Assembly: GCA_900299415.1 (NCBI GenBank)
Contig: OMJT01000188.1
Coordinates: 1-48,101, forward strand
Length of the DNA stretch: 48,101 nt
Direction: 5' to 3'
Source: Opitutales bacterium
GTDB taxonomy: Bacteria > Verrucomicrobiota > Verrucomicrobiia > Opitutales > Opitutaceae
Below are positions 37,985 to 41,872 of the stretch, piece by piece. The position numbers were made by a program, and so were the translations under genes. Under the pieces are notes generated by a model that was given only the letters and a program-made list of their open reading frames with translations, searched no databases and was not told where the DNA came from. Every line of letters starts with the position of its first letter. Position 1 is the first letter of the stretch.

Positions 37985-39241
37985 GTGGATCAAGCCCGCC
38001 TCCCGTCCGCCCCCGGCCCCCGGGACCGCTTCCTCGGCTTGCTGCGTGCCGCGGTTGCGGACGGGCAACTCACCAAGCTCACCTTGGGCAAGCACCGCGG
38101 CGCCGAACCCACGCTGCGCAACCTGATGGTCCGCCCCGTCGAGCTGAAGGCCGGCCCGCACCTCAGCCTTGTCTGGCGCCACGCCACCCGCGACATCACC
38201 AAGAACCTCGCCCCCGCCGCCGCCCTTGCCGTCCTGGAGCCCCTGATCGGGGCCGACTTCCTCGATGCCCACCTCTTTACCGCCACGCAAAACGCCCAGC
38301 TTGAGTGCGGGATCGGCAAGGGCCGGCTGAAAATCATCCCACTTTCCGAAACTGCACCCAAATCTGATGGGTTGCGCGAGAATCCGCCGGTACCCGCTAC
38401 CCATGATCGCGAGCGGGCTTATCTCATCCCCGCCACGACTCCGTGGCTCAAGGACCTCGGAATCACCAACGCCGCCAGCACCGTGCGCGCGGGGCAGGTG
38501 CCAAAATTCCGCCAGATCAACAAATTCGCCGAGCTCCTCAGCCACCTCCTGCCGGAGGCCTTCCCCGACCGGCCGGTCAGTTCCCCGCTGGAGATCGCCG
38601 ACATGGGGTGCGGCAAGGGATACCTGACCTTCGGCGTCGCCGCCCTCCTCGGCCCCAAGGCCCGCGTTATCGGAGTCGAGGCCCGCCCGGAACTCGTCCG
38701 CACCTGCAACGAAGCCGCGGCCCGGCACGGCCTTTCCAACCTGACCTTTGTCGCCGGCAAAATCGCCTCGCCCCTGGTTACAAATTCCCAATCTCAAATC
38801 TCAAATTCCCAAGACGTCCTCATCGCCCTCCACGCCTGCGATACCGCGACCGACGATGCCATCGCCCACGGCATCGCGGCCGGCGCCCGGCTGATCGTAC
38901 TCTCGCCCTGCTGTCAGAAGGAGCTGCGCCCCCAGCTGGTCGCGCCCGCGGTGCTCGCCCCGGCCCTGCGCCACGGGATCTTCCAGGAACGGCAGGCAGA
39001 ATTCGTCACCGACGCCCTCCGGGCCCTGCTGCTCGAGTGGGCCGGCTACCGCACCAAGGTCTTCGAGTTCATCTCCACCGAGCACACCGCGAAAAACCTT
39101 ATGATCGCTGCCGTGCGGACCGGCGAACGTCAGGCGGTGGACTCGCCCGCCGCACAGCAGATCCGGGCCCTCGCCGCCTTTTACGGCATCCGCCGCCAGC
39201 ATCTGGCCGGGCACCTCGGTTTCCCCCTGCCGGCGGCATGA
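37985..39241 (+). CDS. SAM-dependent methyltransferase, METTL25/RRNAD1-like
   Basis: KFRQINKFAELLSHLL, IADMGCGKGYLTFGVA, VIGVEARPELV, LIALHACDTATDDAI, LSPCCQKEL. Confidence 0.85.
   Translation: MDQARLPSAPGPRDRFLGLLRAAVADGQLTKLTLGKHRGAEPTLRNLMVRPVELKAGPHLSLVWRHATRDITKNLAPAAALAVLEPLIGADFLDAHLFTATQNAQLECGIGKGRLKIIPLSETAPKSDGLRENPPVPATHDRERAYLIPATTPWLKDLGITNAASTVRAGQVPKFRQINKFAELLSHLLPEAFPDRPVSSPLEIADMGCGKGYLTFGVAALLGPKARVIGVEARPELVRTCNEAAARHGLSNLTFVAGKIASPLVTNSQSQISNSQDVLIALHACDTATDDAIAHGIAAGARLIVLSPCCQKELRPQLVAPAVLAPALRHGIFQERQAEFVTDALRALLLEWAGYRTKVFEFISTEHTAKNLMIAAVRTGERQAVDSPAAQQIRALAAFYGIRRQHLAGHLGFPLPAA
38780..38812. repeat. AT-rich short repeat insert inside the METTL25-like gene (caaattcccaatctcaaatctcaaattcccaag)
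   Basis: Two caaattccca units flanking an atctcaaatct spacer; encodes TNSQSQISNSQ; base composition departs from surrounding high-GC codons. Confidence 0.75.
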
Positions 39242-40224
39242 ACTGGACCCAACTCGACTGGCCGGCGCTCGACCGGCTGCGCGACGGTTTCCTCCACGGC
39301 GGCGCTGCCGCCGGGCCCTATTGGAAGACCACCTCGGCCCTTGCGAGCTACGACCTTACTTATGGCGAGCGCATTGCCTGGAAGTGGGACGCCGTCCTGC
39401 AAGAGCTCCGCCTGCGCAACTGGCGGCCGCCTTCCGGCGCGGTCCTCGACTGGGGCTGCGGCAGCGGCGCGGCCGCACGCCGCGTGATCGGGCATTTTGG
39501 CGCTGAGACGTTCACCGAGCTGCTGCTCTGGGACCATGAGCCGCTGGCCGTCGAGTTCGCCCAGAAAGCCGCGCAAAAGGCCTTCCCGGACCTTCGGACC
39601 TCGGCGGTCACCCCCGGTTTCCTCACCGGCGGCGATGCGCCCGGCCTCGTCGTGGTGAGCCACGTGCTCAACGAGCTTTCGGCGCCTGCCCTGGCCGAAC
39701 TCCGCGCCCTGCTCGGACGCGCGCAGGCCGTGCTCTGGGTCGAATCCGGTATCCGCGAGACCAGCCGCAAGCTCTCCGCCGAGCGCGAGCACCTGCGGGA
39801 GTCCTTCCAAGTCGCCGCCCCGTGCACCCACGCCGGGTCCTGTCCCGTGCTGGCTCCGGAGAATGAGCGCCACTGGTGCCACTTCTTCGCCCCCGTGCCC
39901 GGCGAGATCTTTGCCAACCCCGACTGGGTGAAGTTCGGCCAGCGTGCCGGCATCGACCTGCGGAGCCTGCCGTACTGCTTCCTCGCCCTCGACCGTCGCG
40001 GTGCAGGCGCCGCCACCGGCCTTTCCCGGGTCATCGGTCGCCCCGAGCACTTCAAGCCCTACGCCCGGCTGCTGAGCTGCGACGCCTCCGGCCTTGCCGA
40101 GCTGACCATCCCCAAGCGCACCGCCCCAAGCCTGTTCAAGGAACTGGACCGCGCCAAGGGCCCGTTGGTCTACCGCTGGCAGCGGCAAGGGGCTGAAATC
40201 ACGGGTGGTAAACGCCTGGGATAA
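39238..40224 (+). CDS. Rsm22/METTL17-like methyltransferase-fold protein (small ribosomal subunit)
   Basis: YWKTTSALASYDLTYGERIAWKWDAVLQEL, VLDWGCGSGAAARRV, SHVLNEL, Cys motifs CTHAGSCPVL...HWCHF...LLSCDASG; ATGA overlap with upstream gene. Confidence 0.8.
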   Translation: MNWTQLDWPALDRLRDGFLHGGAAAGPYWKTTSALASYDLTYGERIAWKWDAVLQELRLRNWRPPSGAVLDWGCGSGAAARRVIGHFGAETFTELLLWDHEPLAVEFAQKAAQKAFPDLRTSAVTPGFLTGGDAPGLVVVSHVLNELSAPALAELRALLGRAQAVLWVESGIRETSRKLSAEREHLRESFQVAAPCTHAGSCPVLAPENERHWCHFFAPVPGEIFANPDWVKFGQRAGIDLRSLPYCFLALDRRGAGAATGLSRVIGRPEHFKPYARLLSCDASGLAELTIPKRTAPSLFKELDRAKGPLVYRWQRQGAEITGGKRLG

Positions 40225-40293
40225 TCCCTCCGCCGGGGTGCTTGACTCGACCGCGCCCGCCCGCAAGGTCCTTGCCCTCACTCACCAATCACC

Positions 40294-40389
40294 ATGGGCC
40301 AACAAACCAACAAGATCATCAAGCAACGCCGTCGCGCCGCCTACCTGAAGCGCCGGAAGGCCCGGGAAGCCGCCGCCAAGAAGAAGTAA
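40294..40389 (+). CDS. 31-aa strongly basic mini-protein MGQQTNKIIKQRRRAAYLKRRKAREAAAKKK
   Basis: ATG 40294 to TAA 40389; 13 of 31 residues Lys/Arg; own terminator immediately downstream; below the ORF-track length cutoff. Confidence 0.7.
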   Translation: MGQQTNKIIKQRRRAAYLKRRKAREAAAKKK

Positions 40390-40417
40390 CGGCGGCCCCG
40401 GCCCCGAACCTCACCCG

Positions 40418-40442
40418 CGGCGGTCCTGTGACCGCCGTTTTT
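40418..40442 (+). terminator. Rho-independent terminator after the 31-aa ORF
   Basis: CGGCGGT-cctgtg-ACCGCCG + TTTTT. Confidence 0.8.
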
Positions 40443-40459: not shown

Positions 40460-41872
40460 ATGATCAAGGTCAGCCTCATCTCCCTCGGATGCGCCAAGAA
40501 TCTCGTGGATAGCGAGATCATGGTCGGTCACCTGCACCAGGCCGGCATGAAGGTCATCCCGGAGGCGGAGAAGGCCGACGTGGTGATCGTCAACACCTGC
40601 TCCTTTATCGATTCCTCCAAGGAGGAGTCGATTGGCCACATCCTCGAGGTGCATCAGAATAAGGGGATGAAAAAGCGCCGCCGCGAGCAGAAGCTCATCG
40701 TCGCCGGCTGCATGGCCCAACGGTTCTCGAAGGACCTCTCCACCTCGCTCGCCGACGAGGTCGACGCCTTCATCGGCCTCGACCAGGTCACGCAGGTCGC
40801 GCCGATCATCGAGCAGATCTACGCCAAGGAGAAGCCCGCCGATGGCCCGGCCAACCTCGTCACGGCCAAGTCCACGTTCATCCCCGATTACGACACGCCT
40901 CGCTTCCGGCTCACCCCGGGGCACCTCGCGTACGTCAAGATTGCCGAGGGCTGCAACCACCCGTGCACCTTTTGCATCATTCCGCAGATCCGTGGCCGGC
41001 ACCGCAGCCGCACCGTCGAGAGCGTGGTCGCCGAAGCCCGCCGCCTCGTCGCCGAGGGCGTGAAGGAGCTCAACCTGATCTCCCAGGACACGACCTTCTT
41101 TGGCATGGATACCTGGGAACAGCGCCCTAACCCGCGCACCCCGGTCGATTCCTCGCGCGGCACCGCCCTCACCACCCTGCTCCGCGAGCTCAACGCCATC
41201 CCCGGCGACTTCTGGATCCGGCTGCTCTACACCCACCCGGCCCACTGGAGCGATGAACTCATCCGCACCATCGCCGAGTGCCCGAAGGTCGCCCGCTACA
41301 TCGACATTCCGCTGCAGCACATCAGCGACCCGATGCTCACCGCGATGCAGCGCGAGACGAGCGGTGACTACATCCGCGACCTGCTCCGCCGCATTCGCGC
41401 TGGCATTCCGGGCATCGCGATCCGCACCACCTTCATCGTCGGCTTCCCCGGCGAGACCGAGGCCGATGTCGACGAACTCGCCCAATTCATCCGCGAGACC
41501 CGTTTCGAGCGCTTGGGCGTGTTCCGCTACTCCCAGGAAGACGGCACCCGCGCCGCGAAGATGGACACTCAAGTTCCCGCCAAGGTGAAGGAGGCCCGTT
41601 GGCACCGGCTGATGGCCCTGCAACGCGAGATCGCCGCCGAAGTCAGCCAGGCCGCGGTGGGACGCTCGCTTCGCGTCCTCGTCGAGGAACCCGGCGTGGC
41701 GCGCGGCGAGGCCGACGCACCCGACATCGACGGCCGAGTCTACGTCTCAGACCGCCTGCCCGTCGGCGCCTTCGCCGAAGTGAAGATCACCGGGTTCCAC
41801 GACTACGACCTACTGGCACTGCCCGCGGGCCATCAGCCCCGAGAGTACAAGGTCGCGCGCCAGGCGCAGTAA
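40460..41872 (+). CDS. rimO: Ribosomal protein S12 methylthiotransferase RimO
   Basis: VSLISLGCAKNLVDSEIMVG, NTCSFIDSSKEESI, EGCNHPCTFCIIPQIRGRHRSR (radical SAM), C-terminal TRAM-like domain. Confidence 0.96.
   Translation: MIKVSLISLGCAKNLVDSEIMVGHLHQAGMKVIPEAEKADVVIVNTCSFIDSSKEESIGHILEVHQNKGMKKRRREQKLIVAGCMAQRFSKDLSTSLADEVDAFIGLDQVTQVAPIIEQIYAKEKPADGPANLVTAKSTFIPDYDTPRFRLTPGHLAYVKIAEGCNHPCTFCIIPQIRGRHRSRTVESVVAEARRLVAEGVKELNLISQDTTFFGMDTWEQRPNPRTPVDSSRGTALTTLLRELNAIPGDFWIRLLYTHPAHWSDELIRTIAECPKVARYIDIPLQHISDPMLTAMQRETSGDYIRDLLRRIRAGIPGIAIRTTFIVGFPGETEADVDELAQFIRETRFERLGVFRYSQEDGTRAAKMDTQVPAKVKEARWHRLMALQREIAAEVSQAAVGRSLRVLVEEPGVARGEADAPDIDGRVYVSDRLPVGAFAEVKITGFHDYDLLALPAGHQPREYKVARQAQ

Follow-up and report, generated by a model that had tools for sequence, protein, structure and literature searches.

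The ribosome of Actinobacteria carries bL37, a tiny, lineage-restricted protein whose helical N-terminus lies in an rRNA pocket (PMC5876184). Similar in scale is bS22 (bS22/mS38/COX24, PF08213), a known small-subunit ribosomal protein (PDB 5o5j, 5xyu) of about 30–33 residues with an MG start, a Lys/Arg stretch, a single gene and a lineage-patchy distribution, and bTHX (PF17070) is likewise a very small basic ribosomal protein. The PVC signature protein CT421.2 of Gupta et al., whose conserved region spans about 53 residues, is small, basic and conserved through the Verrucomicrobiota, with no function assigned (PMC3444138); we infer that it is the protein modelled as TIGR04137 (Chlam_Ver_rRNA, about 50 residues).

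The mini-gene described here lies in a window of 48,101 nucleotides from an Opitutales bacterium, and the 31-residue protein that it encodes shares the general characters of these proteins, being tiny and apparently phylum-restricted like bL37, similar to bS22 in length, start, Lys/Arg content, gene number and patchiness, and small, basic and widely conserved like CT421.2. Its coordinates and those of the surrounding features are given in Table 1. The open reading frame, its position, its peptide, the 13 Lys and Arg residues among 31 and the single acidic residue, a Glu, are exactly as the initial annotation gave them.

Table 1. Features of the mini-gene locus, in window coordinates.
Feature	Position	Strand	Evidence or remark
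Methyltransf_32 (PF13679) methyltransferase gene	37985..39241	+	E 1.2e-33; ORF limits, true start codon may differ
Rsm22/METTL17-like methyltransferase gene, upstream neighbour	39238..40224	+	PF09243 E 5.5e-15
-35-like hexamer TTGACT within conserved CTTGACTC	40242..40247	+	26/26 same-family loci
31-residue basic mini-protein gene MGQQTNKIIKQRRRAAYLKRRKAREAAAKKK, stop TAA	40294..40389	+	orthologues across the phylum; Met1 invariant; frame free of stops; pN/pS 0.30–0.39
Intrinsic terminator hairpin, T-rich tail to about 40448	40417..40438	+	separates mini-gene from rimO
rimO, ribosomal protein S12 methylthiotransferase, downstream neighbour	40460..41872	+	TIGR01125 E 2.1e-142

Comparison with the libraries indicates that the likeness to known small proteins is one of kind. 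Searches with the mini-protein and its aligned relatives gave no match above noise in Pfam or NCBIfam, and none among the PDB chains, which sets it apart from bL37. PF08213 matches no member of the family and hhalign aligns a single column only, so that identity with bS22/COX24 is rejected; unlike bS22 the mini-protein has no profile similarity to this known ribosomal family. The genome of the window carries a separate bS22/mS38-type PF08213 gene (C12:9225-9311; G000, L144). The family is separate from bS22 and bL37, and probably similar to them in kind. Identity with TIGR04137 is likewise rejected, since that model does not match the mini-protein. The conserved region of CT421.2 is longer, with a different sequence and a different locus. 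TIGR04137 is over cut-off at loci of its own in 55 of 58 genomes of the phylum, and in one genome (G075) the two genes lie apart, the mini-gene at 2053728 and TIGR04137 at 2089455; no match over cut-off was found in the window's own, incomplete assembly. The initial annotation had also drawn an analogy with bTHX. Read as relatedness this fails in every test run: neither the mini-protein nor its relatives match PF17070, and that identity too is rejected. None of 58 genomes of the phylum has a PF17070 match over cut-off, and the Verrucomicrobiota appear from these to be without bTHX. By all the libraries checked, and with earlier accounts considered among open-licence papers, the mini-protein family is probably new.

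A strongly basic composition is suggestive by itself but not decisive, because the window holds five open reading frames of 25–60 residues with at least 40% Lys plus Arg, compared with a mean of 0.3 in Markov surrogates. Small basic frames of this sort arise in GC-rich DNA, and this is what speaks for reading 40294–40389 as a chance frame or as conserved non-coding DNA. Conservation decides the matter. A search of 57 relatives with the mini-protein gave a match at E ≤ 1 in 39 of them, nearly all aligned from residue 1 and free of stops. A phylum profile made from a 31-member alignment was run over 390 Verrucomicrobiota genomes and matched 317 at E ≤ 1; 38 of these matches are weaker than 0.01, leaving about 279 of the 390 at E ≤ 0.01. 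The reversed-sequence control profile reached a best E of about 0.067 in 97 genomes, with 32 of the 97 at E ≤ 1. As the control never comes near 0.01, the matches at E ≤ 0.01 are credible, whereas the tally at E ≤ 1 is inflated. The mini-gene is nearly always single copy across the phylum genomes searched, and the mini-protein has no match in the plasmid collection.

Selection within the window's family acts on the same frame. Calculated on 27 aligned codons, pN/pS comes to 0.39 for the three closest genomes and 0.30 for a group of 11, whereas the other two frames give 1.03 and 0.87, and amino-acid changes fall below the random-substitution prediction in all nine pairwise comparisons. Almost no variation is seen in the start region ATGGGCCAACAA, not even in its codons. 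Codon usage fails to separate the mini-gene from ordinary genes; in the three genomes tested, ribosomal-protein genes hardly deviate from the background, which makes the measure uninformative here. Within this family, purifying selection maintains the frame. With frame-specific selection, a fixed start and phylum-wide profile matches set against the empty reversed control, the reading as a chance frame or non-coding DNA is refuted, and we give it a negligible probability. We conclude that 40294–40389 is certainly a genuine gene, conserved over most of the Verrucomicrobiota. Two of the checks that had been proposed at the outset, survival of the frame in relatives and a bias towards synonymous substitution, came out in favour of the gene.

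Within the order the distribution is close to all-or-none by family. An order-level profile, built from 40 diverse members and run over 135 genomes, matched 60 of them, every match with E < 1e-6 and with essentially one copy per genome. The gene is present in nearly all members of f1 and in f2, f18–f21, f96 and f97, and many other families are without it; its absence from several families of the same order indicates that it is dispensable in those lineages. Inside one genus (g60) it is present in one genome (G400) and none was found in three others (G165, G253 and G389). This patchy presence, by family and inside g60, suggests clean losses. In a synteny comparison the neighbour gene was likewise absent from the sister species that have no copy of the mini-gene.

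The mini-gene also has the flanking signals of a transcription unit. The TTGACT hexamer stands 48–55 nucleotides (65 in one case) upstream of the ATG in all 26 same-family loci, compared with 2 of 2102 control windows, and a hairpin followed by a T run lies downstream of the gene in 25 of the 26, compared with none of 680 control windows. No convincing -10 element was seen upstream in the same-family loci, and no SD occurs in the leader in the window's family; an AAGGAG-type SD is present in many members from other classes. Rfam gave nothing credible at the locus. The initial reading of the flanks had noted the same hexamer, without a convincing -10 or a clear SD, and had set the terminator at 40418–40442. 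Judged from these signals, the mini-gene is independently transcribed in the window's family, through a putative promoter element and a predicted terminator of its own. The claim at the heart of the initial annotation, that a real small basic protein lies here which annotation can miss, is strongly supported by phylum-wide conservation, purifying selection, the promoter element, the terminator and the fixed Met start.

In most same-family loci the frame and then the terminator stand directly 5′ of rimO, an arrangement that could belong to a leader peptide or attenuator that senses a translation condition and controls rimO. The peptide is conserved, however, in families in which the neighbours are other than rimO, and leader peptides do not keep their individual residues from one unrelated context to another. 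The persistence of the peptide away from rimO removes the idea of an attenuator, which we regard as very improbable and reject.

The neighbours themselves bear on function to a limited extent. Among the loci fetched, 25 have rimO downstream of the mini-gene and 13 have the Rsm22-like gene upstream of it, in each case all or nearly all from the window's family. In other families the neighbours include translation-type genes (leuS, typA, an RlmI-like rRNA methyltransferase and YacP-type NYN proteins) and also lpxA, ogg, ispF, comF-like, aldo-keto reductase and further genes. Because the neighbours differ between families and are mixed in function, synteny supports a role in translation only mildly. 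The neighbours had been described as ribosome-linked, which stands, as a family-level link, for the Rsm22-like gene and for rimO; PF13679 implies no such link by itself. Conserved synteny was likewise borne out near the window, where the arrangement with rimO and Rsm22 recurs, but not elsewhere, as contexts change between families. The GC-rich PF13679 gene contains an AT-rich stretch, CAAATTCCCAATCTCAAATCTCAAATTCCCAA, at 38779–38812, which recurs once, inexactly, elsewhere in the genome.

Alignment of the family defines a core, M-G-Q-Q-x-N-K-x-x-K-R-x-R-R-x-A-Y-L-x-R-K-K, in which Met1, Gly2, Gln4, Lys7, Lys10, Arg13, Arg14, Tyr17 and Arg20 vary little or not at all between classes. Most members are 30–40 residues long. 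AlphaFold2, run on the single sequence, predicts one helix spanning residues 3–30 with a mean pLDDT of 89.5; helical periodicity in the conservation of the family is not significant (P 0.58). In some groups the core is extended by Ala/Lys/Pro-rich or acidic tails to 73–121 residues. At loci L072–L086, from several families of the class, the tails are long and Ala/Lys/Pro-rich, end in an acidic stretch and bring the protein to as many as 121 residues; they resemble those of linker histones. In one genus with a tailed mini-protein (g73, genomes of 2.2–3.5 Mb) the PF08213 bS22 gene was undetected in the genomes tested.

Our preferred interpretation, which we hold to be slightly more probable than its opposite, follows the second step of the initial annotation, which is supported less firmly than the first, and takes the mini-protein for a small, lineage-specific component of the ribosome or a protein associated with it. 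The gene is conserved, nearly always single copy, short, basic and coding, the combination looked for in a small ribosomal protein. Pointing the same way are the composition, the near-invariant core, the predicted helix, the occurrence of translation genes as neighbours in several unrelated contexts, and the precedent of bL37 and bS22; against it stand the variation of neighbours between families, the lack of the gene in several families of the order, and the lack of a relative in the PDB. In the proposed mechanism the basic helix would lie in an rRNA groove or pocket, where the near-invariant residues from Gly2 to Arg20 may make fixed contacts, and these contacts would in turn stabilise local rRNA structure or assembly. 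The narrower statement, that it is a ribosomal protein of the Verrucomicrobiota absent from family libraries, with a fixed rRNA site, and lost in defined lineages, we put forward tentatively, at somewhat below an even chance.

The main rival, which we consider rather unlikely, is a general nucleic-acid binder acting by charge, either a histone-like or nucleoid-associated peptide or an RNA chaperone. The very high Arg and Lys content with one acidic residue would suit such a role, and the long Ala/Lys/Pro-rich tails of linker-histone type, found in some of the groups at 73–121 residues, also fit a nucleoid protein, but most members have no tail. The PVC signature protein, likewise small and basic and unrelated to this one, was reported by Lagkouvardos in 2014 as an unspecific DNA/RNA binder. 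What argues against charge alone is that Gly2, Gln4, Tyr17 and the spacing of Lys and Arg are near-invariant throughout the phylum, beyond what charge needs; the near-invariant Gly, Gln and Tyr favour specific docking. The conserved Tyr17 and Gln4 could also belong to a helix that, instead of binding RNA, docks on a conserved protein such as a translation factor or polymerase. Two of 40 members weakly resemble the helix of NF-YA, a binder of histone-fold dimers (PF02045, CBFB_NFYA), through a KQYxxIxKRRxxRA-like stretch. The best E, 0.011, is sub-threshold and falls well short of significance over the library, and the similarity is probably convergent; the charge, moreover, favours nucleic acid, and we judge a protein partner improbable.

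A short gene that is conserved in most of a phylum, and has no counterpart in Pfam, NCBIfam or the PDB, exemplifies what filters on length and composition can miss. Should the mini-protein be ribosomal, extra density is predicted in any Verrucomicrobiota ribosome map, and the protein would be a marker of the phylum. The lineages that are without the mini-gene offer a natural comparison for its function.
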